Positions 34,621-47,819 of a stretch of DNA of 54,613 nt are shown piece after piece; within the stretch, counting starts at the first letter, position 1, and the number at the start of each line of letters is the position of its first letter. The stretch spans positions 33,894 to 88,506 of the forward strand of contig DFEB01000037.1 of the NCBI GenBank assembly GCA_002368605.1. Direction: 5' to 3'. The notes beneath the pieces were generated by a model. It did not search any database. It had not been told where the DNA came from and was given only the letters and a program-made list of their open reading frames with translations. Source of the stretch: Treponema sp. UBA3813. GTDB taxonomy: Bacteria; Spirochaetota; Spirochaetia; Treponematales; Treponemataceae. The position numbers and the translations under genes are program-made.

Positions 34621-35490
34621 ATGAATTTTGAACAGAACTTTGAGAATCAGACTTTTGACGAAGAACGCGCCCTTTATGGCATAAAAAATGCGCTGGTAAA
34701 GAATTGCTCTTTTGACGGCCCGGCTGACGGCGAATCAGCCTTAAAAGAAGCCAGCGATTTTGAAGTAAAGGACTGCTACATGAACCTGCGCTATCCTTTC
34801 TGGCATGTGACAAACGCAAAAATCAGCGGAAGCGAACTGACGGAAAATTGCCGGGCTGCCCTCTGGTACGACAAAAATGTAGAAATTGACTCATGCAAAC
34901 TCAACGGAATCAAGGCTTTGCGGGAATGTGAGGGCATCACTCTCAAAAACAGCAGCGTCTCTTCTCCAGAATTTATCTGGAAGTGCAAGAATCTTTTAGT
35001 CGAAAATGTCGAAATCAACGAGTCGGAATATCCTTTCTTTGAGGTGGAAAATGCAAAAATCACCAATCTTAAAATGAAGGGAAAATATTCTTTTCAGTAC
35101 GACAAGAATATCGAAATCTGCGATTCGGATTTGGACACAAAGGACGCGTTCTGGCACACAAAAAATGTGACCGTTCGGAACAGCACTGTCAAAAGCGAAT
35201 ATTTAGGCTGGTACTCAGAAAACCTTACCCTCATAAACTGCCGCATTATCGGAACCCAGCCCTTCTGCTACTGCAAAAATCTTGTTTTGGAAAATTGTAC
35301 CATGGAAGGCTGCGACCTTGCCTTTGAGCGAAGTTCAGTCCAGGCGGATGTAAAAGGAAAAATCGACAGCGTAAAGAACCTGTTTTCAGGCAGCGTGACG
35401 GCAGACGAAATTGGCGATATTATTATGGAAGAAAACATCATTGACAGGGCGAAATCCAAGATTATTTGCCGGAAACGCCAGCGTTCATGA
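34621..35490 (+). CDS. DUF3737-family right-handed beta-helix protein
   Basis: A 289-residue cytoplasmic protein made of repeated beta-helix rungs (pattern x-N-x-x-I/V-x-x-C/S with paired aromatic repeats such as YPFWHVTNAKISGSEL, RAALWYDKNVEIDSC, AFWHTKNVTVRNS). It matches the DUF3737 family, often annotated as a hydrogenase-associated protein though no enzyme activity is shown. It ends 28 nt inside the convergent btuD-cbiP gene. No partner gene nearby suggests a function. Confidence 0.82.
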   Translation: MNFEQNFENQTFDEERALYGIKNALVKNCSFDGPADGESALKEASDFEVKDCYMNLRYPFWHVTNAKISGSELTENCRAALWYDKNVEIDSCKLNGIKALRECEGITLKNSSVSSPEFIWKCKNLLVENVEINESEYPFFEVENAKITNLKMKGKYSFQYDKNIEICDSDLDTKDAFWHTKNVTVRNSTVKSEYLGWYSENLTLINCRIIGTQPFCYCKNLVLENCTMEGCDLAFERSSVQADVKGKIDSVKNLFSGSVTADEIGDIIMEENIIDRAKSKIICRKRQRS

Positions 35491-37990
35491 TTTCATAGAT
35501 TTTCTTCATGTCCAAGTGGGCGCGGAGCGTGTCGGCCAGAAGATTGTACTGGCTTTCCTTAAAATCCTGAATCGTGGGAAATCCGTTGAAAATTTGTGAC
35601 TCACCTTCCCCGTCCTGTTTTTCTTTTGCGGCCAAAAAGGATTTTTCAAAATCGATTCCCTTTCGTCTGGCGAGGATTTCAACAAACTTCTGGCATAATT
35701 CCGCCTGGTCAAAAAATCCGTGAATGTAGGTGCCGAAGACATTTCCCTTAACCGCGCCGTCAAGCTTGGTCACGCCGGAAACGCTGTCAGTAACCTGCGC
35801 CAAAAAGGACTCAGCCGCCCCCGCAACAAAGCGCGTCCGTCCCATGTGGATTTCATAGCCGGAAACAGGAAGAAAATCGAGGGCAGAAAAGAGAGATTCG
35901 GAATTAACTTCGGAATGACGCAAACCATCGGATTCAGGATGACCGATTTCACCATCAGAAGAATCATTAATCATCAATTTTCCCGAAACGCGGGTGCGTG
36001 TCTTCTCCGAAGAAAAGACTGTCTCCACAGGAAGCAAGGAAAGTCCAATGAATTGTGCATTCTGCATTACACATTCTGAATTATATTCGCTTCCCGAAAT
36101 CTTTTCCCCCAGCATCTGAAAGCCGCCACAGATTCCTGCGATTGGCGTACCTTTTTTTGCCTCGGATTGAATAAGAGAAGCAAGGCCAGATTTTTTGAGC
36201 CAGTCCAAGTCAGCGAGAGTGTTTTTTGTTCCCGGAAGGATTATGCAGTCGGGAGAACCTAAGTCTTTGGGTTCTGAGACATAATAGAGGTTCACCAGAG
36301 GAGAATTTTGCAGAGGAATGAAGTCAGTGAAGTTTGAAATATGAGGCAAACGAACGACCGCTAGTTGAATTTTTTCTTTATCGTCTTGAAATTTTGTAAA
36401 AGTGTGCAAATTTTCAGACAGCGAATCCTCGTCGTCCAGCTGAATTTTCATATAAGGGATGCAGCCGACTACAGGAATACCTGTTTTTTCTTCCAGCATT
36501 TTGATTCCGCTTTCAAGAATGGTCTCATCCCCGCGGAATTTGTTGATTATAAAGCCTTTTACCCGCGACCGTTCGTTAGGCGTAAGCAGTTCCACGGTTC
36601 CTACGAGCTGTGCAAAAACTCCGCCCAGGTCAATGTCGGCCACGAGAAGCACCGGGCTGTCGGCGATTTCTGCCATTCCCATGTTTACGATGTCATTTTC
36701 TTTGAGGTTGATTTCGGCAGGACTACCCGCCCCTTCAAGCACGATTATGTCATGCTGGAGGCTGAGTTTTTCGTAAGCGGCCTTTATGTGTGGAATCAGG
36801 GATTTTTTGTAGGCGAAATATTCTTTTGCGGCCATGTTTCCCAGCACTTCGCCATTCACGATGACCTGACTTCCCGTGTCGCTGGTGGGTTTAAGGAGAA
36901 TAGGATTCATGAGGACACTCGGCTCTACTCCGGCCGCTTCTGCCTGCATGACCTGCGCCCGCCCCATTTCCAGGCCTTCGTTGGTGACAAAGGAATTCAG
37001 GGCCATGTTCTGGGACTTAAAGGGCGCGACTGAAAATCCGTCCTGCTTGAAAATACGGCACAAGCCCGCCACGACAAAAGATTTCCCCGCATTAGACATC
37101 GTTCCCTGCACCATCAAACAAGAATTATGTCCGTGTAATTCTTGTTTTGACGCTGCAGTACCGCATCCTTGCGGAGATTTTTCAAAGATTTTTTTCTTGC
37201 AAAATTTCTGTACCAATTCTTCGTAAGCCTTTTCTTCGTTGAAGAAATTTTCGTCCAATTCGTACAAAGCGCTCAACTGAGACTTACACGCCTTTTCCTT
37301 TCGGGAAAGTTCCCGGATTTCTTTTTTCCCGACGCAGAGGATTCGGCTGGAGATTTTAAGGGCAAGGTCGATTTCGTGGAGGGAGGCGATGATCGTGACG
37401 CCTTTCCCAGCGAGATTTTTGAGAATCGCAAGGAGTTCAAGCCGCCACTTGATGTCCAGGTAGCTGGTCGGCTCATCTAAAACCAATAGCTTTGGGTTTT
37501 GACAGAGGGCACGGGCAATCATTATCCGCTGTTTTTGACCGTCACTGACGCACATAAAGTCTTTCTGGGCAAAATCCTGAGCGTGAAGCAAGGAAATCGC
37601 CTCGTCAACCGCCTTTTCGTCATCTGAATTCAAAAGTCCAAAATAGCCGGTGTGGGGATAACGGCCAGAAGCGACCACATCACGACAGGTCAGCAATTCG
37701 GGCTTGACGCTGGTGGTAAGCAAAACCGAGATTTTTTTTGACACTTCCTTTTGCGTGTAGGATTTCAGCTCCGATGAATCAAGGAAAACCGCACCTTCAA
37801 TGGGTTCTAGCTGACGGATAATCGTTTTGAGGAGAGTGGATTTGCCTGAGCCGTTGGGCCCGATAAGCGAGAGAATTTCGCCTGCGCGCAGAGAGAGGGA
37901 AATGCCACTATGGAGAGGAGATTTTCCGTAGCCCACGGCGAGATTTTTTAGGATTAGGGGGAAGGTGGCTGGAGAAAGGTTGTTTTTCAT
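35462..37990 (-). CDS. cbiP: Fusion of cobalamin ABC ATPase (BtuD) and cobyric acid synthase (CbiP)
   Basis: An 842-residue fusion. Residues about 1-250 are an ABC ATPase of the BtuD/FhuC type (GPNGSGKST, signature SDGQKQR, LLVLDEPTSYLD, SLHEIDLAL). Residues about 300-840 are cobyric acid synthase (VQGTMSNAGKSFVVAGL, SQNMALNSF, GRAQVMQAEA, PGTKNTLADLDWL, glutaminase Cys in AGICGGFQML, His in GTYIHGFFD), which amidates four side chains. ATG 37990 overlaps the stop of the preceding gene (ATGA) and has GGGAG. Two repeat-derived insertions lie in the glutaminase half. It couples an uptake subunit to a biosynthetic enzyme in one chain. Confidence 0.9.
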   Translation of the reverse strand: MKNNLSPATFPLILKNLAVGYGKSPLHSGISLSLRAGEILSLIGPNGSGKSTLLKTIIRQLEPIEGAVFLDSSELKSYTQKEVSKKISVLLTTSVKPELLTCRDVVASGRYPHTGYFGLLNSDDEKAVDEAISLLHAQDFAQKDFMCVSDGQKQRIMIARALCQNPKLLVLDEPTSYLDIKWRLELLAILKNLAGKGVTIIASLHEIDLALKISSRILCVGKKEIRELSRKEKACKSQLSALYELDENFFNEEKAYEELVQKFCKKKIFEKSPQGCGTAASKQELHGHNSCLMVQGTMSNAGKSFVVAGLCRIFKQDGFSVAPFKSQNMALNSFVTNEGLEMGRAQVMQAEAAGVEPSVLMNPILLKPTSDTGSQVIVNGEVLGNMAAKEYFAYKKSLIPHIKAAYEKLSLQHDIIVLEGAGSPAEINLKENDIVNMGMAEIADSPVLLVADIDLGGVFAQLVGTVELLTPNERSRVKGFIINKFRGDETILESGIKMLEEKTGIPVVGCIPYMKIQLDDEDSLSENLHTFTKFQDDKEKIQLAVVRLPHISNFTDFIPLQNSPLVNLYYVSEPKDLGSPDCIILPGTKNTLADLDWLKKSGLASLIQSEAKKGTPIAGICGGFQMLGEKISGSEYNSECVMQNAQFIGLSLLPVETVFSSEKTRTRVSGKLMINDSSDGEIGHPESDGLRHSEVNSESLFSALDFLPVSGYEIHMGRTRFVAGAAESFLAQVTDSVSGVTKLDGAVKGNVFGTYIHGFFDQAELCQKFVEILARRKGIDFEKSFLAAKEKQDGEGESQIFNGFPTIQDFKESQYNLLADTLRAHLDMKKIYEIMNAGVSGK
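35895..35943 (+). repeat. Palindromic repeat A (diverged) within cbiP
   Basis: GATTCGGAATTAACTTCGGA followed by ATGACG, then a half-copy GATTCAGGATGACC at 35931-35943. It encodes a 30-35-residue insertion before the conserved GYEIHMGRT strand of CbiP. Confidence 0.5.
36057..36092 (+). repeat. Repeat B copy within cbiP
   Basis: AATTGTGCATTCTGCATTAC followed by ACATTCTGAATTA; the same ATGCA-rich pattern as the insertions in cobU and cbiA. It encodes residues around ECVMQNAQFIG, before the GLSLLPVET strand. Confidence 0.5.
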
Positions 37991-39402
37991 ATAATCTCCC
38001 AATGTCCGCCTTTGTCTGCGCCCACGCGACGGATAATATTTTTTTCCTGTAACCTTGCAATCTGCTTGGCAACTGCACGCCTGGAAATTCCCAGTTTATC
38101 TGCCATGTCCTGAGTAGTTATATTTCCATCAGACTTTATAAGTTCAATAATTTTCTGTGAACTTTTCTGTGAACTTTTCTGTGAACTTTTCTGTGAACTT
38201 TTCTGTGAACTTTCTATGTATTTTCCATGCTCAACATCCCAAGTATTCTGGCCTGGTGCAAGGTTTTCCTTATAAATCAAACCGTCTTTTGCAGTTCCGG
38301 CCACAGCCTCAAAAGTGACAGTAAAATCGTTGTTATCTATGGAATATTTAGGAAGGGGATTTTCATTTTCTTTGCAGGCATCACAAATCTTTTGAATACC
38401 ACGCCCCCAAGTTTCAATATATCCGGCCTTAAAAAAAGCTTCTGCAATCAGCGGATTATATTTTATGGACTTATGTTTCTGGAAAAGTTTTTCTTCCGTC
38501 CAATCTTCGGTGACATTTGCGGCATCATTTGAAATCACAATCTTATTATAATAAACCCGAATCTGAGTCGGATTCATGTAATTATACGCACGGTGAACAA
38601 TCGAATTATAAATGGCCTCGCGAATCGCACCATACGCAAATGGAAAAGTTTCAATTCGGGTTGTTCCGTCGTAAGTTATTGTCGCCTTTAAGTATTTGGT
38701 AAAAATCAAATCAATGCACTTTTCCGCCTGCTCAAAAAGAGAACCCTTCACCTCGTCCTGATACAGAATATCAGAGTCTTCAAAATAGCCTACCTTGATA
38801 TATGAATTGAATGCAACCTTATTCGGGTCTTTTGCAAACAAAAGATATGCAGCGCGGGTAAGTTTTCCGTCTTCCGTTAAAAGCTGAAGTTTTTCCAAAA
38901 GCTCGCGCTTGGAAAGATTCAAGTCATCAACAGAAAGTCTTTTGTGTTTTAAAGCCTGTTCCCTAAAAATATCAAATGAAGTGTCAGGCAACTGCTCCGG
39001 CTTTACGTTTTCTACAACCGCACTTTCCCAACTGACCCCCATTTTCTTCATTAAAAAGGAATTCAATGCATTACCCTTAAGCTGCTGTTTCGTGCTTCCA
39101 GAACGGTAATGATACTCACCCCTATAGTTCACAGGAAACTGGCTCGGCTCTACCTTTATTTCAATAACATCCTTTCCATCCTTTTTACTAAGATTCACTT
39201 CCGCAAGTATACCAAGCGCATCTCGGATTTTATTTGGTAAATCTTCCAAGGACTTTTTGGCATCACTTACACCAACAGCCTTTCCTTTGTCATCTATACC
39301 AATATAAAGCACACCGCCCTGAGCATTTGCAAAACCACAAATCCATTTGAGATATTCATCACGCCAAGATTCTTTGTATTCGACTAACTGGGATTCGGAC
39401 AT
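37987..39402 (-). CDS. AlbA_2 (Schlafen AAA_4) ATP-binding transcriptional regulator
   Basis: A 471-residue protein with an N-terminal AlbA_2 domain (LVEYKESWRDEYLKWICGFANAQGG, LYIGIDDKGKAVG), a middle HATPase_c_4-type region (REAIYNSIVHRAYNY, GYIETWGRGIQKI) and a C-terminal winged helix (TTQDMADKLGISRRAVAKQI). Before the helix it has five copies of SSQK from a 12-bp tandem repeat. The family is described as predicted transcriptional regulators or nucleic-acid-binding proteins. It is coupled to btuD-cbiP and may belong either to that operon or to the restriction island. Confidence 0.85.
   Translation of the reverse strand: MSESQLVEYKESWRDEYLKWICGFANAQGGVLYIGIDDKGKAVGVSDAKKSLEDLPNKIRDALGILAEVNLSKKDGKDVIEIKVEPSQFPVNYRGEYHYRSGSTKQQLKGNALNSFLMKKMGVSWESAVVENVKPEQLPDTSFDIFREQALKHKRLSVDDLNLSKRELLEKLQLLTEDGKLTRAAYLLFAKDPNKVAFNSYIKVGYFEDSDILYQDEVKGSLFEQAEKCIDLIFTKYLKATITYDGTTRIETFPFAYGAIREAIYNSIVHRAYNYMNPTQIRVYYNKIVISNDAANVTEDWTEEKLFQKHKSIKYNPLIAEAFFKAGYIETWGRGIQKICDACKENENPLPKYSIDNNDFTVTFEAVAGTAKDGLIYKENLAPGQNTWDVEHGKYIESSQKSSQKSSQKSSQKSSQKIIELIKSDGNITTQDMADKLGISRRAVAKQIARLQEKNIIRRVGADKGGHWEII
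38153..38212 (-). repeat. Five 12-bp tandem repeats (SSQK) in the AlbA_2 gene
   Basis: Five exact tandem copies of TTCTGTGAACTT on the plus strand, encoding (SSQK)5 as a hinge between the ATP-binding and winged-helix domains. The 12-bp unit preserves the frame when copy number changes, so it would change linker length rather than switch the gene off. Confidence 0.9.
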
Positions 39403-39418
39403 TATTGGGCTCCTTTTT

Positions 39419-39528
39419 TGGGGGTGTTCCCTGCCTTTCGGCAGGTCGGGCTTTTCGCACTTCCGCTATCGCTTCATTCCTACGCTTACGCTTCGGAACG
39501 CCTTCGGCGGTGCTACAATCCCTAACGA
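39419..39528 (+). repeat. G/C-rich intergenic repeat at the island border
   Basis: A dispersed-repeat-like stretch: GGGGGTGTTCCC, the hairpin CCTGCCTTTCGGCAGG (39430-39445), TCGGGCTTTTCGC, TACGCTTACGCTTCGG, GCCTTCGGCGG and ACAATCCCTAACG. Sequences of this form are common intergenic repeats in several host-associated bacteria (from memory). It separates the AT-rich restriction genes from the AlbA_2/btuD-cbiP pair. Confidence 0.5.
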
Positions 39529-39533
39529 CTGTT

Positions 39534-40535
39534 TTAAAATAATATATTATCTACTTTCCATTCTTTATTAAGTTTATCTCTATATGAATCAAAAACTATA
39601 CAATCATCTGTCATTATTTTTGAAGTATCCAACTCAGGTATATAAAAGGATTTTATATCGACATTCTCCATCTCAATTGTGAACATCTGATTTATAGTTG
39701 CAGAAAAGACAGTAGAATTATTGATTAAAGATAACGGACTATAACGTATAGCATATAAAACAATATTAGCAGCTATGGCTTCAATAATAAATTTTAGTTT
39801 TGCATCGCTGAAAGAATTATATCTATCATGCTTTGTTTTATTATATGCATCATACCACACCAATGATTTTGTAGGATTGGAAACATTCCATAATAGAAAC
39901 GGAGTTATTTTTGTCCTAAATGAATTATTTCGGAGTCTTATAGAAAAATCCGTTAGAAAGATCTTATTAATTAATTTTGCATAATCCTTAGTTGTATAGT
40001 CCTTTCCGTTTATCGGTGTAATTTTATTATGTACAAGGATACTTCTCCATTGGTTTTCAACTTCTGTACATGATAAAATTAACAATTCTCTTGTCTTATA
40101 ACTATAACATTCCAAACCTTCTATTGATGGTTCTATATATATAAGCAATTCATCTAGTTTTTGTACTAATAAACGAATACTTTGCTCCTGTGAAACTTGC
40201 TCAGATTCATTAATCCTCAATGCATTACATGTATCGTACCAATAATATAATGACGGTCTCCAAATTCCTTCGAGTACATGTCCAACATCACGTGTCATAA
40301 CTTGAATTTCATCAGCTCCAAATCTATATTTTACCCAATCTTCCAGAGACTTATATTTCGCTTTACCTTCTGTAACGGTCAAACCTACAGAGATAATATA
40401 AAAGCTTTCTTTTCCATAAAAATGGACATAATGTGTTGGAGTTTCATACGCATAACCATATTTTTGTTCTACATGAACATTATCTACCCATCCAGGAAGA
40501 TTTGTTTTTGTGTTTTTATAACATATAGCTTTCAT
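39534..40535 (-). CDS. Uncharacterised HEPN-like protein downstream of the R-M gene
   Basis: A 333-residue AT-rich gene not recognised as a named family. It starts 8 nt after the R-M gene, with AAAGGA before the ATG. The middle (residues 190-270) is helical and contains WYDAYNKTKHDRYNSFSDAKL; the KTKHDR segment resembles the RxxxxH region of HEPN RNases, which is suggestive only. The N-terminal part is beta-rich (YGYAYETPTHYVHFYGKESFYIISVGL). Tight spacing suggests it belongs to the restriction system as an effector or specificity helper. Confidence 0.6.
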   Translation of the reverse strand: MKAICYKNTKTNLPGWVDNVHVEQKYGYAYETPTHYVHFYGKESFYIISVGLTVTEGKAKYKSLEDWVKYRFGADEIQVMTRDVGHVLEGIWRPSLYYWYDTCNALRINESEQVSQEQSIRLLVQKLDELLIYIEPSIEGLECYSYKTRELLILSCTEVENQWRSILVHNKITPINGKDYTTKDYAKLINKIFLTDFSIRLRNNSFRTKITPFLLWNVSNPTKSLVWYDAYNKTKHDRYNSFSDAKLKFIIEAIAANIVLYAIRYSPLSLINNSTVFSATINQMFTIEMENVDIKSFYIPELDTSKIMTDDCIVFDSYRDKLNKEWKVDNILF

Positions 40536-40543
40536 AATATCCT

Positions 40544-43500
40544 TTACATCTCCTTCACCTTAGTCTCAATAAACTCGATTTCATCTTTTGAAAGCCCATA
40601 TTTCTTATACAACTGTTTATCTATTTCTGGAATAGACTTGCTCCAGTCAATGTCGCTGGTTGCGGTGAAGTCTTGGAGCGGAACAAAGCGATATGTTTTA
40701 GCGGTTGCGTCTTGGCTTGCTTTTGCAAGGCTGTGCATAAACCTTGCAAATTTTGTCTTGAAATATCTGCAAATATTATTAGCAGCTGTTTCATCAAGAT
40801 TCAAATTAATACCTAAAAGTAGATATGATTCAGTACAAACAGTATTTGGCTTTCCTACAACGGCATTTAAATTATCATCATTCAACTCTGTTCCAATGTT
40901 ATTTGCCCGTGAAGTGAACACCTTCCAATTGTTTATCCATTCTTTATGCGCTGGAACTTGCTCATTTTCGATATATCCAACACTCCAATTCTTTCCATAA
41001 CAAAATACTGGTTTTTTAAGTCCGTCACTTGAATCTTTGAAATGGGAACTTTTTGCAAAAGTTGTGTCCAAACCAAAAGGTTTACGAGATGACACATACT
41101 CAGAGAAAGATTTTGACTTATTCTCAGAAAATATTTTTTTTATTATTTCAATCGCAACTGCACTTCTTATAAAAATCTCTGTTCCCTCTATTTTCATAGG
41201 GCGCATTATATCGCTTTCAATTCCTTTATCGTTGTGCGTGATAACCCTTGTAAGTTTTTTCGTATTGTCATAATTTTTATTTCTAAAGAAATAGCAAATT
41301 CCACCTCGATTATTTGTATCAGGAAAAAGAAGTTCTGGGTGTAAAAAATCATGAAGTTCTTGCAAATGAATATCATTCAGCATTTTGTTTCTGAATTCAT
41401 CAAGATTTTTTCCACCAGCATACCATCGTGAGGGCATTATGATTGATACAAGATTCGGGTCAACTTTTTCTGAAAAATCTACAAAATCATTATAAATTGG
41501 TCTTGCACTAGCTTGTGCACCACCATCCATCACCTGATACGGTGGATTACCAATTATCGCATCAAAATTCATATCTTTAAGCTCCTTGAGAATTTCTTCA
41601 TTTTTTGTTGTGTCTATCAAATCATACGATGTAAAGTCAGAATAAATATGTTCTACAGGAAGACCTAAAAGTTTGTAAATCTTCCTTGTACATTCATAGG
41701 TTACGCCCGATGTCGGAATGCTGTACACATTATTCTTTATTTTTTCGCCATATCTTTGTAAAAGCGCATTTGCAAATTCCCCGGTCTTTGAGGCAATGTC
41801 AAGGAATTTGTCGCTTGCGCAAATATCATCCGGCAGATTGTTCACCAGTTCCATTGCGACATTATCCGGCGTTACTACTTCCGAAACAGAAAGGCGTGAC
41901 ATTTTCTTTAATGCTATTCCAATCTTATCCGGTCTTATTTCTTTTCCAAGCTGGTTGATGTTTTGGATTTTATCTTCAAGATAAGAAAGAATCTGCGGAT
42001 TGATTTTGTCACGAACAAGTTTTAATTCTTTTACATTAATCTGAAGGTTCTTTCCAATGCGTTTTCCGTCTGTATCATTTTCAATATTGAGAATTATATC
42101 TGAAACGCTCTTTTCATCTTTTTCAGAAATAAAGGCAAAAAGCAAGAGCTTAAAATAATAGCCTTGCAGCTTGCTTGCCAATGCTTTGCTGTTATCTTCT
42201 TCACTTTGAGAATTATCTTTTTTCTCTGTATTTTGAGGCTCCAAATCTCCGGCCGTTTGTGCATCTGGAATATCAATATCATCACCGTCGTCTTCTGAGC
42301 CGTAAGCTGGCACATCAAACTTAATGCCTTTTACCGTAACTTCCGGCTGTTTTTCAATTATTGAACGAATTGCTTCATCTTCAAAAATCCGCTGGTCAAT
42401 TTCTATGTCGAAAGTTTCATCCATCATGCTCTTATTGGCATTGTAATTACGGATTGTATCGACAATATCTTGCGCTTCTACCCTACCCAATTTTGAATGA
42501 TTCATAAAAATGATGGGAGCAATTTCAAGTTCTCTTTTTAATTTTGCGTCCAGAACTTCATTTCCTCGTTCAGATTTATTTATGTTTGCTATAAGAGACT
42601 TTTTGTGCTGCAATGTGTACATTCTGACAGGATCAAAATCAACAAGAATTGTCTGAGGCTTCATGTCTTGCCTGATTATTTTGCCGTCCTCACTCTTTAT
42701 AGTCTTAATATACTGACTTTGCAAACGGAAAATTGCCTGGTCATAGTCCTGCGGACTAGATGTATTCCGCAAGAAAATCATCGTATCCCACTCTTTGACG
42801 GTCGAGCCTGTAAGCATTTTTCCTACCGTCAAAGAAATTGTCTTTTTCCCTTCTGATTCAAACTTTTCGATTTTTTCTTTGACACGAGCGGCATAATCAG
42901 GCTTATTCATTATTGTTCCTGAATCAAAACCTGCAATATTTATAATTTCGTAATCATTCAGATTATTAAAACGCTCAGCCTTTAAAAGATTTTCCATTGC
43001 ATCACAGGAAGCACAATATGGAAGTACCATGACGATATGGCGGCACATTGAGCCTTTTTTGATTTTGTCATAATTTAAGAAACTGAAAATATTTTCATCC
43101 TCTTTGCTTCCGTCAATCGCGCGGAGCAAATCTATAACTTCATCTTTATATTTGAACTGATTGTGTTTTTCGTCTGCTTTTGATGTTGATTCAGGAGAAA
43201 ACAGTTCATCCAAATCATAGGCATAGCCGTTATTTTTTAAGTCTGCCAGCTTTGCTTTTGCAGATTCGTTCAGATTAAAGGCAAAGCGAATCATCTGTGG
43301 AAAGCCATAATAAGGATTTTCCCATTCGTCTTTTTCAATATTTTCCTTATCCCACTTTTCTTTTTCGTTGATAATGTCGCTGTATTGAACCATTCCGACA
43401 ATATCATCACTTTCAAATTCGTTATCCAAAAGAATTCTGTAAGGAGTACCTGAAAGATGGAGCTTCACTTTTGGAGAAAAGACTTTTATCTGATTCTCAA

Positions 43501-44500
43501 GATCATCAAAAGATTCGTCATAACCAGTTGATTTTTCTGTCTTTGAAAGTTTCGTACGATTGTTTTGGTTACTGAGCGTAGTCGAAGTACCAAGAACTTT
43601 TCCGAATTCTTCTGCCCTTGCTCCAAAATGAGTTTCATCTATAATGAGCAAATCAAGTTTTTTCTGACTGTTTAAGCTGAATAAATCGGCATGGCGAGTT
43701 TTTATATCTTCTCCAAGCAAATCCTGCATGGTAAGAAAAACAACTACAAAATGGCCTTCTGCAAGTTTTTCTGAAATGACGGCTGGATTTCTTGACATTG
43801 AATCTGAATCAATAAATTCAAAGCCGTCTAGTATTTTTGGACGCTGAACATTTTCTTTCCATTCCAAACGAACTGCTGTCTTTCCGCAAACAACAACAGT
43901 CAGTTTTGCTTTCATTGCCTTAGCACAACAAAGAGATGTAAAAGACTTTCCAAAACGCATGACTGCGAACATCAACAAATTGTTGCGGCCTTTTTTGACT
44001 GCATTTGAAAAATTCTCTATGACAGCTTTCTGATTTTCTCGCGGTTTCCAGTCCGCATCACGCTTAAAGTCAAAATCTCCTAAAGGCAAGTTATCTTCCA
44101 CATCATAAAAAGCGTACCTGTTATCTTTCTTCTCAAATGATTTTTGAATGTCTTTTATAGCTTCCTCAACATTTTCCTTTTTTGCATTCATAAAAAACTC
44201 GTTTGAAAGATAAATTCCGCTTTTGACATCATCTTTTTCAATTCGGCGGAAGCCATTCTGAATCAAAAAATCATGTACGGAATAATCGCGAAAGTATGTT
44301 TTCTCGTCAACTTTTGCAATATGCTCGTATTTCTTTTTCAAATCAGAATAGAATTTTCGCCACTCATCAAGACGGACTTCGACAGGACGGTAAGTGTCAC
44401 CGACTTTGAGAAAATTAGGAACGGTGTTTGTTTCAAAAGCGTAGATGTATGGATCAACACGGCCTCGAATGAGAGAATTCAGGTTTATATTTTCAATCAT
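40544..44500 (-). CDS. GIY-YIG nuclease / SF2 helicase / N6-adenine methylase fusion
   Basis: A 1318-residue restriction-modification polypeptide. N-terminus (residues 10-50): GIY-YIG-like (DPYIYAFETNTVPNFLKVGDTYRPVEVRL). Residues 150-700: SF2 helicase/translocase with MRFGKS (motif I), IDETH (II), HLSGTPYR (III) and QAIFRLQSQ (VI region). Residues about 880-1318: gamma-type N6-adenine methylase with motif X-like VVTPDNVAMELV, FLDIASKTGEFANALL (motif I) and NPPYQVMDGG (motif IV). It overlaps the upstream gene by 8 nt. A C-terminal target-recognition role for residues 1180-1318 is likely. The whole looks like a single-chain translocating R-M enzyme. Confidence 0.85.
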   Translation of the reverse strand: MIENINLNSLIRGRVDPYIYAFETNTVPNFLKVGDTYRPVEVRLDEWRKFYSDLKKKYEHIAKVDEKTYFRDYSVHDFLIQNGFRRIEKDDVKSGIYLSNEFFMNAKKENVEEAIKDIQKSFEKKDNRYAFYDVEDNLPLGDFDFKRDADWKPRENQKAVIENFSNAVKKGRNNLLMFAVMRFGKSFTSLCCAKAMKAKLTVVVCGKTAVRLEWKENVQRPKILDGFEFIDSDSMSRNPAVISEKLAEGHFVVVFLTMQDLLGEDIKTRHADLFSLNSQKKLDLLIIDETHFGARAEEFGKVLGTSTTLSNQNNRTKLSKTEKSTGYDESFDDLENQIKVFSPKVKLHLSGTPYRILLDNEFESDDIVGMVQYSDIINEKEKWDKENIEKDEWENPYYGFPQMIRFAFNLNESAKAKLADLKNNGYAYDLDELFSPESTSKADEKHNQFKYKDEVIDLLRAIDGSKEDENIFSFLNYDKIKKGSMCRHIVMVLPYCASCDAMENLLKAERFNNLNDYEIINIAGFDSGTIMNKPDYAARVKEKIEKFESEGKKTISLTVGKMLTGSTVKEWDTMIFLRNTSSPQDYDQAIFRLQSQYIKTIKSEDGKIIRQDMKPQTILVDFDPVRMYTLQHKKSLIANINKSERGNEVLDAKLKRELEIAPIIFMNHSKLGRVEAQDIVDTIRNYNANKSMMDETFDIEIDQRIFEDEAIRSIIEKQPEVTVKGIKFDVPAYGSEDDGDDIDIPDAQTAGDLEPQNTEKKDNSQSEEDNSKALASKLQGYYFKLLLFAFISEKDEKSVSDIILNIENDTDGKRIGKNLQINVKELKLVRDKINPQILSYLEDKIQNINQLGKEIRPDKIGIALKKMSRLSVSEVVTPDNVAMELVNNLPDDICASDKFLDIASKTGEFANALLQRYGEKIKNNVYSIPTSGVTYECTRKIYKLLGLPVEHIYSDFTSYDLIDTTKNEEILKELKDMNFDAIIGNPPYQVMDGGAQASARPIYNDFVDFSEKVDPNLVSIIMPSRWYAGGKNLDEFRNKMLNDIHLQELHDFLHPELLFPDTNNRGGICYFFRNKNYDNTKKLTRVITHNDKGIESDIMRPMKIEGTEIFIRSAVAIEIIKKIFSENKSKSFSEYVSSRKPFGLDTTFAKSSHFKDSSDGLKKPVFCYGKNWSVGYIENEQVPAHKEWINNWKVFTSRANNIGTELNDDNLNAVVGKPNTVCTESYLLLGINLNLDETAANNICRYFKTKFARFMHSLAKASQDATAKTYRFVPLQDFTATSDIDWSKSIPEIDKQLYKKYGLSKDEIEFIETKVKEM

Positions 44501-45497
44501 TTTTCTCTCCCTCTTTCATAATATCTACGAAGCGTAAAGTTTTATTCTCCTTCCAGTCACGGATTTTGCAATAGATTCCGTTGTGCTTGAAATAAGAATT
44601 TTTGCCGTAACCAAGCTTGCAGCCCTCACATGGTTTCGAAATCACATGGCTTTCAAATAAATCTTCCTCCACAATTTCTTTTGTACAACAGGAATTCGGT
44701 ATAACAAACTTCAAGCCGTCCATTTGCCAGATATTCCATGCAATCACTTTGGCAAAGCCGATTAAATCCTGAGTTTGAAGTTTTTCATGGAAGTTTGCTT
44801 CATAGTGCTCTGCGACATCAAAAAGAAGATTTTCTCGTGCAATAAGAATATTATCTCCCTGCCACTCAAACCCATAAGAACTTTGTACAGCAACCATTGC
44901 CCATTTTAGCCAATCTTCGCGACTATCAGTATTCTCAGCAACAACACGAAGTTTTCTGTCCAATAGACCTATCCTATTTGGAACCTCTATATATTCACCA
45001 GTAACAGTGTCATAACGGCTCGCAAGATAAGGAGCCTCACCGCAAGTAATTTCCAGCCGGTTTGAATTGACATAATCCTGCCAACTTTTGCCTTTTTCGT
45101 CTGAGAATTGAATTTTTTCTTTTGTTGCTTCCCATGAGCGTTCCTTTTCTATATTAAAAACATCTTTTCGCCCCAACCAGACTTCATCAACCAAATTGTT
45201 CTGAAGATTGCAAACCCAGCTTGGAGTAAAGACTTCTGCTTTTTGTCTCACTCTCTTCTGCTGTTCTTCCTTTGATTTTTTTGTGCGCGGTTTTATAATT
45301 CCGCCATGCCGTGAGGTAATTAATTCTATTTTGATTTCTTTCTCAGCAGAATAAGAAAAACCATATTTGGAATAATTGTCCGTTGCCCAAATGATATTTT
45401 TTCCTGTCGTTTTGTCCTTCAGAAGAATTTCAAGCAGAGTGCGGTCAATTTTGAGAAGGTCATTTTCTTTTATATCTATCAAATTTTGGGCTTCCAT
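44493..45497 (-). CDS. R-M partner with degenerate adenine-methylase motifs
   Basis: A 334-residue protein upstream of and overlapping the large R-M gene. It has a motif X-like QKAEVFTPSWVCNLQNNLVDE and a motif I-like LEITCGEAPYLASRYD, but no NPPY. A DGLKFVIPNSCC segment follows and the C-terminal region is Cys-containing (SKPCEGCKLGYGKNSYFKHN). It could be a pseudo-methylase specificity or regulatory subunit for the methylase in the next gene. ATG 45497 is taken; an adjacent GTG is three bases upstream. The ribosome binding site is weak. Confidence 0.72.
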   Translation of the reverse strand: MEAQNLIDIKENDLLKIDRTLLEILLKDKTTGKNIIWATDNYSKYGFSYSAEKEIKIELITSRHGGIIKPRTKKSKEEQQKRVRQKAEVFTPSWVCNLQNNLVDEVWLGRKDVFNIEKERSWEATKEKIQFSDEKGKSWQDYVNSNRLEITCGEAPYLASRYDTVTGEYIEVPNRIGLLDRKLRVVAENTDSREDWLKWAMVAVQSSYGFEWQGDNILIARENLLFDVAEHYEANFHEKLQTQDLIGFAKVIAWNIWQMDGLKFVIPNSCCTKEIVEEDLFESHVISKPCEGCKLGYGKNSYFKHNGIYCKIRDWKENKTLRFVDIMKEGEKND

Positions 45498-45564
45498 CAC
45501 TTTTATTCTAGCACATTCCTAGACTTTTTTCATTCAGTTTCCTCTTTAGGCCACCGCTCCGCCA

Positions 45565-46575
45565 TCACTTCTCCCGCTTCCTTCGGTTCACCAGCATGAA
45601 AATCACCACGGGCGCGCCGAAAACTGATGTGACCGTGCTTATGCTTAGTTCCATCGGGGAAAGGACTGTGCGGGCGATAAGGTCAGATATGATGCAGAAA
45701 ACTGCCCCGCCCAAAAATGAAGCCGGAATCACGACCAGACTTTTTGAAGTGAGAAGGAGCCGCTTGACCAAAAAAGGCACGGCGATTCCCACGAAGGAAA
45801 CCGGGCCTGCAAAAGCCGTGACGGTAGCGGAAAGCAGGCTTGAAAGGAGAATCAAAAGCGGGCGGAAGATTTTTGTGTTCACTCCCATGGACTGAGCGTA
45901 ACTTTCTCCCAGCTGAAAGGCCTGAATTGGTTTTGCAAGCAAAAAAACAAGGGCTGTAGTCACAAAGATGATTCCGAAAGAAAGCGCGCAGTCGCCCATA
46001 CCGAAGCCAGAAAAGCTTCCCTTTGACCAGCCGTGCAAGTTCACGATATCGGCGTCTTCGGCAAAGGTAATCAAAAAATCCGTGACCGCCGAAGTGACAT
46101 AGCCAATCATGATTCCCGCCACCAGAAGGGAACCGGCGGAAGAAATTTTCCGGGCTACCAGTAGAATAAAAGCCGTGGAAAGAAGGGCACCGACAAAGGC
46201 CGAAGCGACCAAAATAAGAGACGATGATGCAAATCCCCTTTTGAGCAGAAAAATCAGCGCGAGGGCAACCGTCATCTTGGCTCCCGAAGAGATTCCCAGA
46301 ACGAAGGGACCTGCAATTGGGTTCTGAAAGTAAGTCTGTAGTAAAAATCCAGAAAGCGAAAGGGCTCCCCCCAGCAAAAACGCCATGATAAGCCGGGGAA
46401 AGCGAATCTGCATGATGATGTTGACTTCCTGTGTCGAGCCGCCATGACGCGCCAGAATCGAGCAGACCTTACCGAAAGACAGGGGAACCGAGCCAATGGA
46501 AAGAGAGAGCACGGAGGAAAGCGCGAGCAAAATGAGAAAGACGATAAAAACTAAGGGGATTCGATTTACTTTCAC
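45565..46575 (-). CDS. btuC: Cobalamin/iron-siderophore ABC permease (BtuC/FecCD)
   Basis: A 336-residue FecCD-family permease with about ten membrane segments. Family marks are SIGSVPLSFGKV, RFPRLIMAFLLGGALSLSGFLLQTYFQNPIAGPFVLGISSGA, and the late GPVSFVGIAVPFLVKRL, then SDLIARTVLSPMELSISTVTSVFGAPVVIFML. The start is GTG 46575 with GAGGGA upstream, 11 nt after btuF. The usual next gene, the ATPase, is not adjacent; it is found 7.6 kb further on as part of the BtuD-CbiP fusion. Confidence 0.9.
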   Translation of the reverse strand: MKVNRIPLVFIVFLILLALSSVLSLSIGSVPLSFGKVCSILARHGGSTQEVNIIMQIRFPRLIMAFLLGGALSLSGFLLQTYFQNPIAGPFVLGISSGAKMTVALALIFLLKRGFASSSLILVASAFVGALLSTAFILLVARKISSAGSLLVAGIMIGYVTSAVTDFLITFAEDADIVNLHGWSKGSFSGFGMGDCALSFGIIFVTTALVFLLAKPIQAFQLGESYAQSMGVNTKIFRPLLILLSSLLSATVTAFAGPVSFVGIAVPFLVKRLLLTSKSLVVIPASFLGGAVFCIISDLIARTVLSPMELSISTVTSVFGAPVVIFMLVNRRKREK

Positions 46576-46586
46576 TTGCAATCCCT

Positions 46587-47819
46587 CTACTCCACCCGCT
46601 CCAAAAATGCCAACTGCCTCTCTTCCCCGCTGATAATCGCCTTTAAATCGAGAATCATATCGCCGATGCTGTCGGTAGCCTGATAGAGATATTTCCCGGT
46701 CGCCCACACTGAGCCGCTCTGCACTGCCTTGAATTCGGCAAAGAGGGGGCTTTTTGCGCGCAGATCCTTTAGGGAATGAACGCTGTTATCAATCGAGGAA
46801 TTGTAAATGAGGATGTCGGCATCGGCGCACTGGGCGTAAAATTGCTCCATGGAAATCGTGACCGAGGGACTGGTGGATTTCCGCGTGGAGGCAAAGGCAT
46901 AAGTTCCACCGGCCATTTCAATCATTTTTACGATGTAGTCGTCGCTGCCACGGATTACCACAAGACCGTTGGGTGTTATATAGAAAAAAGCGATTTTGGG
47001 GGAGATTCCCGCATCTAAGTGCGGGAATGACGGTGAATCATGGTGTGTGGCTGACGGTGAATCAAGTGCTGGGGTCAGGGCGGAAATCTTTTTTTGGAAG
47101 AAAGATTCAGCCTCCCTCTCCTTTCCCAGCATGGCTCCGTAAAGTTTAATCCATTCCATGCGGCCAAGGGGATTCGGCTCATAGCTGGACTTATCCACGA
47201 AAACCGGAATTCCCAGAGACTCAAGTTTTTCTTTGATTTGGGGCGAGTGATAAATCATCGTGGATTCCACGGCCAGAGACGGCTTTTCCTTCAGCAAAAG
47301 CTCAAAATCGGGGGCATTGTATTTCCCGGCGTAGAGGATTTTTTTCTCTTCCATGGCGCGGGCGGCTTCTTCTATATACCAGTCTTTTTTTTGGATAGCG
47401 GAAAAGCGGATTGCGTCCAAAGAATCAAGGCGAGCCCAGAGAGCCATTGCGGAAGATGCGCAAAGATAAGTCTTTTTTACGGGATATTGAATCAGGATAA
47501 TTTCAGGAGGAAGATTTTTGGGAAGAGGCGCGTTTGCGGGAATCAAGAGATAGCGGTCACTGTCGGCCACGGTAATCAGGCGATAACCACTCGAAGCAAA
47601 AGCCCTGTCACTGTCAGAAGATTCTATCGGGCGATATTCGTCAATGCGGAAGATTTTCGCATATTTTAATGGAAGAGACTTTTCAAAAGTCAGGCCTTCG
47701 ATTTCAAGGGGCGCGTCATTTTTAATAGAAGATTTTGTGCATGAAGAAAGAATTAAGAGAAAGCAAAGAAGAGGAAAAAAAATTCTGACACGGATAGACG
47801 CAGAAAACTGCGGATTCAT
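46587..47819 (-). CDS. btuF: Cobalamin-type ABC substrate-binding lipoprotein (BtuF-like)
   Basis: A 410-residue class III periplasmic binding protein. It has a lipobox (LSSC, Cys27), an N-terminal lobe (IILIQYPVKKTYLCASSAMALWARLDSLDAI), a bridging helix region (SFFQKKI) and a C-terminal lobe (KIAFFYITPNGLVVIRGSDDYIVKMIEMAGGTY, ADADILIYNSS). Riboswitch and cbiK context points to cobalamin or a precursor; iron-siderophore binding is an alternative. About 20 residues before KIAFFYI are encoded by palindromic repeat A (47003-47032). Confidence 0.87.
   Translation of the reverse strand: MNPQFSASIRVRIFFPLLCFLLILSSCTKSSIKNDAPLEIEGLTFEKSLPLKYAKIFRIDEYRPIESSDSDRAFASSGYRLITVADSDRYLLIPANAPLPKNLPPEIILIQYPVKKTYLCASSAMALWARLDSLDAIRFSAIQKKDWYIEEAARAMEEKKILYAGKYNAPDFELLLKEKPSLAVESTMIYHSPQIKEKLESLGIPVFVDKSSYEPNPLGRMEWIKLYGAMLGKEREAESFFQKKISALTPALDSPSATHHDSPSFPHLDAGISPKIAFFYITPNGLVVIRGSDDYIVKMIEMAGGTYAFASTRKSTSPSVTISMEQFYAQCADADILIYNSSIDNSVHSLKDLRAKSPLFAEFKAVQSGSVWATGKYLYQATDSIGDMILDLKAIISGEERQLAFLERVE
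47003..47032 (+). repeat. Palindromic repeat A in frame within btuF
   Basis: GATTCCCGCA-TCTAAG-TGCGGGAATGACGG, with the variant centre TCTAAG. Read on the coding strand it gives the extra loop SFPHLDAGISP between the two lobes of BtuF. Partial flanking duplications (GGTGAATCA twice, 47032-47064) follow. Confidence 0.7.

Follow-up and report, generated by a model that had tools for sequence, protein, structure and literature searches.

The window, the whole stretch of 54,613 nt of the Treponema sp. UBA3813 contig DFEB01000037.1 that was analysed, carries three tightly packed minus-strand open reading frames, here called PM, BIG and P3, which proved to be real and to lie where an earlier note on this DNA had placed them. 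The PM and BIG frames share 8 nt, and P3 starts 8 nt beyond the BIG stop (ORF coordinates); the three genes are probably co-transcribed. The features of the locus are as follows.

44493-45500, minus strand: PM, 335 aa, start GTG at 45500 or ATG at 45497 (ORF list).
40544-44500, minus strand: BIG, 1318 aa (ORF list).
44171-44458, minus strand: GIY-YIG (T5orf172-like) signature, BIG residues ~15-110 (alignment and Pfam on homologues).
43439-44047, minus strand: ResIII (SF2 helicase, first part), BIG residues 152-354 (Pfam).
41549-41881, minus strand: altered methylase front lobe, BIG residues 874-984 (motif reading).
40547-41548, minus strand: NPPY (985-988) and target-recognition half, BIG residues 985-1318 (Pfam, locus comparison).
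39534-40535, minus strand: P3, 333 aa (ORF list).
39729-40217, minus strand: predicted HEPN-like helical bundle, P3 residues 107-269, with N232-x2-K235-H236-D-R238 (alignment and model).
37987-39402, minus strand: AlbA_2 (Schlafen)/HATPase/HTH gene, which bounds the cargo slot in the window (Pfam and locus comparison).

As judged from its sequence, BIG is a predicted GIY-YIG nuclease, SF2 helicase/translocase, altered methylase front lobe and NPPY plus target-recognition half, in this order. The ResIII match of Pfam has an E value of 7e-8, Eco57I matches residues 966-1056 (E 1e-18), and PADLOC REase_MTase_IIG (PDLC03626) spans the entire protein (E 0). The N-terminus of the window's BIG gave no Pfam match to GIY-YIG, and the superfamily assignment comes through its homologues: 18 aligned N-termini all have Y20, K32 and G34, and nearly all have R43 and E101, which gives the Y / K-x-G / R / E signature, and T5orf172 (GIY-YIG) matches 14 of the 18, the window's own not among them. 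The domain reading of the earlier note (a GIY-YIG-like N-terminus, an SF2 translocase and an N6-adenine methylase) is thus upheld by Pfam, PADLOC and the homologue alignment. Searches of PDB sequences with BIG, PM and the GIY-YIG profile returned nothing useful.

The front lobe of BIG departs from a normal methylase at both SAM-site motifs. DIASKTGEF (901-909, K905) stands at the position of motif I, and SIPTS (927-931) at the place of the expected acidic motif II. Among 47 readable lobes chosen for a survey, broken or cut ones being left out, 45 are of the BIG type, the proteins of L203 and L206 falling outside because their motif is canonical. All 45 have a Lys where motif I has its first Gly, and the acidic motif II is absent (the L188 lobe, missed by the motif-II pattern, reads FGIAPTE by eye). 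These motifs suggest that BIG's own front lobe is SAM-dead.

PM appears from its motifs to be the front half (motifs X, I, II and III) of a gamma-class N6-adenine methylase, and PADLOC MTase_II (PDLC03390) matches it with E 1e-122. Direct reading of the translation showed that motif IV (NPPY) and the target-recognition domain (TRD) are absent, and relatives are alike, so the claim that the partner keeps motifs X and I and has no NPPY was right. The Cys-Gly motif I and the acidic motif II are kept in PM relatives (70 proteins, 69 distinct; motif II was missed in two, L049 and L205); among the HsdM controls three were read by pattern and three by eye, one of them (L108) with NMPF for NPPF. PM alone falls short of the full gamma-class order. 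On three viral contigs, PM is fused directly to an NPPY/recognition half, and this natural fusion has motifs X-I before NPPY and the TRD after it; partial rows of the fusion alignment begin after NPPY. The structure predicted for one such fusion is a complete methylase. In L203 and L206, phage-contig proteins that are solo methylases, a PM-like canonical lobe is joined to NPPY, and a BIG-type helicase was not found beside either. Viral contigs also carried PM genes standing alone, at 12 loci with 11 distinct proteins. Because PM keeps the SAM-site motifs that are altered in BIG's lobe, PM may be the SAM-binding half and the BIG lobe not, and to call PM a pseudo-methylase, as had been done, is probably the wrong way round.

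The predicted structure of P3 is a HEPN-like helical bundle. In an alignment of the window's protein with 83 relatives of 290-370 aa, N232, K235 and H236 (M1 = 1) are kept in 84/84 sequences, an invariance that is partly built in because the relatives were found with a pattern containing the KTKHDR stretch; R149, E158 and E160 are kept as well. The suggestion that P3 recalls HEPN RNases therefore holds for the fold in the model and for the KTKHDR segment, but the canonical Rx4-6H, including its Arg, is missing. N232-x2-K235-H236 stands about in its place, with Y231/N232 near the expected Arg position (the register was estimated from the end offset of the structural-alignment row 7ae8_D). A Foldseek search with the model gave no E below 0.43, and sequence searches against PDB, single or profile, gave nothing up to E 5. 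Pfam and PADLOC showed no convincing match to P3 and only scattered weak ones across 67 relatives (HEC-01A in 1/67, E 6e-4; PD-Lambda-5_A in 2/67, E 0.015), and no Pfam/ABC ATPase domain was found in P3. PHROGs matched P3 to phrog_19461 (function unknown) with E 1e-97.

The gene behind BIG was compared between the window and locus L045 of the same genus. Identity is 93.2% over 7105 nt and breaks sharply at 40544, where the BIG stop codon ends. P3 is absent from L045; its place is taken by a gene of 262 aa, unrelated to it, that matches PDC-S31 weakly, followed by an AlbA_2 homologue whose DNA is only 65% alike over 384 nt (the likeness sets in at window 39414, which is 12 nt ahead of the start of AlbA_2) and then by a 385-aa gene. 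High identity is back over 46 nt at window 39408-39363 (L045 10018-10062; 95.7%), and a further stretch of it covers 38035-35473 (92.2%), indicating that the chromosomal site is the same. The exchanged block thus comprises three genes in L045 against P3 in the window. In L043 and L044 the core and the beginning of the AlbA_2 gene are shared with the window, but the cargo is different. They also differ from it at 41529-40685, which covers BIG residues 991-1272, a stretch that opens just after NPPYQV and closes shortly before the TRD half ends, so that the TRD too is exchanged among close relatives.

AlbA_2 homologues follow the cargo in six loci (L043, L044, L045, L047, L051 and L216), with more than one gene in between in L047 and L051. 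Among 42 PM-BIG loci in which the core end can be seen, a same-strand ORF lies no more than 60 nt from the core in 21; one of these ORFs is only 61 aa, and the remaining loci have no such ORF. Gaps between core and cargo run from -26 to +25 nt, except for 154 nt in L044. PADLOC matched the slot genes in 15 of the 19 loci tested (16/20 proteins, one weak, L061 having contributed two). The matches were Dsr2 in L043 (full length) and L054, an AriAB/PARIS-like protein in L052, HamA (Hachiman) in L047 and L056, a CBASS cyclase in L040, SIR2 types in L048 and L061, SpbK in L058, Orf5 in L174, NsnA in L041, and PDC-S31, S02, S14 and S35 in L045, L051, L175 and L184; the slot genes of L044, L059, L060 and L176 had none. 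The protein tested for L052 and L058 was the second gene of the run, picked after reading the sequences, and the first cargo genes of L049, L197, L216 and L217 were left out of the scan. Upstream neighbours matched PADLOC in 4/10 loci against 8/10 for the slot in the same loci, numbers too few to lean on as an argument for enrichment. The PM-BIG neighbourhood is a defence island anyway, and exchange is better supported by the sharp junction at the BIG stop.

Co-occurrence of the three genes was examined from both ends. Within 195 genomes of the window's family, PM was matched in 33 (a few weakly) and P3 in 3, and the two P3 relatives outside the window genome lie on contigs other than those of PM. 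A P3-like gene was present in 0/60 other loci with PM and BIG or an NPPY half; these 60 include the duplicates L185 and L186 (of L174 and L175) and the solo methylases L203 and L206, and at least 9 of them stop with the core or shortly after it (L039, L042, L046, L050, L053, L055, L057, L069 and L215). Conversely, PM was present in 0/98 loci of P3 relatives, 80 of them from genomes and 18 viral, among which three pairs are identical in P3, many contigs are short, and neighbours were clustered and partly annotated. Four of the 98 have an HsdM-like match. Plasmid records were examined for 5 of 11 with P3 and 3 of 17 with PM. The PM-BIG core is common, and the trio with P3 was not found outside the window in the loci examined. 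The earlier note had joined the three genes into one system and had named a failure of the third protein to co-occur with the other two as what would count against it; this failure is what the neighbourhood search showed. P3 looks like one of many exchangeable cargo genes, and the three genes look modular, not like a new fixed system. That they nevertheless form one dedicated, rare system is very improbable: operon-like spacing is all that speaks for it, and it is largely refuted already by the 0/60 and 0/98 counts and by the other genes in P3's place at the orthologous site, on which we reject the trio as one unit.

The nearest known enzymes are those of Type ISP (LlaGI, LlaBIII), with which BIG shares the single-chain order of nuclease, SF2 motor, gamma-methylase and TRD. 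Type ISP enzymes have an N-terminal Mrr-like nuclease (PMC3874165), whereas BIG has a GIY-YIG signature instead. They are self-contained, without a separate methylase subunit, whereas BIG has PM beside it in the window and also at the loci examined, PM having been the query by which those loci were collected. PM adds a second front lobe, BIG's own lobe is altered, and split and fused forms exist. BIG and PM are already catalogued as restriction-modification, since near-full-length PADLOC models exist for both, but the labels (type IIG; type II methyltransferase) are silent on the motor and on PM as half a methylase. Natural split methylases such as M.AquI and M.EcoHK31I, whose active site is completed by two polypeptides, are cytosine (5mC) enzymes, while PM-BIG is of the N6-adenine type by its motifs, has one catalytic half to two front lobes and is tied to a motor nuclease. 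An inactive DAM domain reported in DndH (PMC10853773) offers a partial precedent for defence enzymes that carry a dead methylase lobe. PM is the unexpected part of the locus; in the portions of the open-licence literature consulted, we recognised no printed precedent for a split, two-lobed N6-adenine restriction methylase of this kind or for this cargo slot.

Linkage of P3-like proteins to restriction is older ground. PMC3710099, PMC3874165 and PMC12707154 describe HEPN toxins in restriction operons, guards and accessory toxin genes, among them PrrC-EcoprrI and 16 HEPN clades (PMC3710099), so the "new defence layout" of the earlier note did not survive. P3 resembles PrrC in being a HEPN-like protein encoded within a restriction-modification operon, but PrrC has an N-terminal ABC ATPase, of which P3 has no sign, and its linkage to EcoprrI is dedicated; P3 is without the canonical Rx4-6H and is replaced by other genes behind the same core. 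AbiV has structural similarity to P3, with 4% identity in that alignment, but P3 is ~105 N-terminal residues longer, and no AbiV match was found in Pfam or PADLOC, nor any other match at the level of sequence.

We favour, with moderate confidence, a core of PM and BIG that is an ATP-dependent restriction-modification enzyme with a two-polypeptide methylase, P3 being a separate, exchangeable HEPN-like cargo. PM-BIG would work like a Type ISP enzyme with GIY-YIG replacing Mrr: the BIG TRD would find an unmodified site, the SF2 motor would translocate, the GIY-YIG domain would cut the DNA, and NPPY would methylate adenine. The methylase would be built from PM, as SAM-binding front lobe (X-III), and the NPPY/TRD half of BIG, which would additionally bear the second front lobe with altered SAM motifs. 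P3 would most likely be a HEPN-like abortive-infection effector, acting independently or stepping in when restriction fails, its RNase or toxic activity and its trigger being our conjecture. It is possible, though not what we expect, that PM is instead a non-catalytic pseudo-subunit and that the BIG lobe and NPPY are active, PM stabilising the enzyme, binding DNA or regulating it. METTL14 is a parallel for such a partner, to METTL3. In fused and class-3 forms BIG's own lobe runs directly on into the NPPY half, and three class-3 lobe versions retain a near-normal DPACKSGVF, as this reading would have it; against it stand the altered motifs of the 45 BIG lobes, in contrast to the acidic motif II and Cys-Gly motif I kept by PM, the direct fusion of PM to NPPY in three loci, and the joining of a PM-like canonical lobe to NPPY in L203 and L206 with no BIG-type helicase found beside them.

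That P3 is a guard like PrrC, which PM-BIG keeps inactive and which is freed as an RNase when phage inhibits restriction, is unlikely. The 8-nt spacing to BIG, the P3 relatives inside hsd (type I) operons in 7/98 loci and an AriAB-like gene after the core at one locus would fit it, and PrrC and PARIS are established guards of restriction-modification (PMC12707154); but 91 of the 98 loci are without a visible type I operon and none has PM-BIG (many contigs being short), and the same core carries unrelated cargo elsewhere. Because P3 relatives occur without PM-BIG and the core with unrelated cargo, a dedicated PM-BIG/P3 interface is unlikely too. A less remote though still doubtful reading makes P3 a non-catalytic HEPN-like module that binds RNA or protein and has no RNase activity. 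The missing Rx4-6H, with Y231/N232 where the Arg is expected, agrees with this, and some motif-less HEPN domains are probably non-catalytic RNA binders (PMC3710099); yet the same source has families without R but with H, and AbiV without the canonical motif, and H236, K235, N232 (pattern-biased), R149, E158 and E160 are all kept in P3 relatives.

Within the favoured two-polypeptide methylase, a more tentative idea is that the NPPY/TRD half of BIG pairs either with its own SAM-dead lobe, to scan and cut, or with SAM-bound PM in trans, to methylate. If so, PM would decide between restriction and protection, the solo PM genes at the 12 viral-contig loci would be anti-restriction factors that make a methylase of the host enzyme, and the gene that follows the core would be a plug-in slot for backup effectors. 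The case is a caution that a tight three-gene operon with a restriction enzyme need not be one new system. The exchange of downstream genes at one chromosomal site amounts to a natural experiment, in which one restriction core is joined to different effectors. If PM supplies the SAM site, restriction and modification would be gated by a second protein in the PM-BIG family, which would explain the solo PM genes on viral contigs.

The block formed by PM (a 335-aa methylase front half with motifs X to III and without NPPY), BIG (a 1318-aa protein joining GIY-YIG, SF2 helicase, an altered methylase lobe and an NPPY plus target-recognition half), the HEPN-like P3 and the AlbA_2 gene is flanked by a permease gene and an ATPase/CobQ fusion gene.

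Window 35462-46707: PM-BIG-P3-AlbA_2 block with its flanks, the FecCD permease gene on one side and the ABC-ATPase/CobQ fusion gene on the other.
Window 35462-38002: single 846-aa ORF joining an ABC-transporter ATPase and the cobyric acid synthase CobQ.

In L222, L226 and L230 the sequence match extended across both parts of this fusion. The ATPase match adjoined the permease match in 7 of the 11 relatives' loci that have a permease match, and in L222 the two were 17 nt apart. Judged from these matches, such loci show the empty arrangement and are candidate orthologous sites.

Within BIG, the recognition-domain stretch (window 40685-41529) showed sharp-edged divergence in the close relatives L043 and L044. 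In the relatives L047, L050, L052 and L053 an extra ORF was located between PM and BIG; these ORFs resemble one another and are probably RhuM-like.

PM-like genes were also observed alone on viral contigs, at 12 loci encoding 11 distinct proteins of 214-311 aa, and no NPPY half or helicase was in view near them. Two phage-contig methylases carry a canonical PM-like lobe, with the motif EPACGSGNF, and no BIG-type helicase was found beside them.

L187, L190-L192, L194-L196 and L198-L202: solo PM-like genes, viral contigs.
L203:317-1879 and L206:5653-7224: methylases with PM-like lobe and NPPY/TRD half in one protein.

P3-like genes were observed inside the type I hsd operons of L104, L105, L107, L108, L111, L112 and L116, which also carry other variable genes, RhuM-like ones among them. 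The P3 copy on a Chryseobacterium plasmid (L035:4445-6680) is fragmented, its pieces separated by a 355-aa ORF on the opposite strand. In the cargo slot of one relative, a 1563-aa protein is encoded (L216:1188-5879).

In L045, the recognition-domain stretch of BIG is as in the window, yet the cargo is different. A 46-nt copy of the start of the window's AlbA_2 gene (L045:10018-10062, 95.7%) is placed behind a second, diverged AlbA_2 homologue. This copy is likely a trace of cargo exchange.
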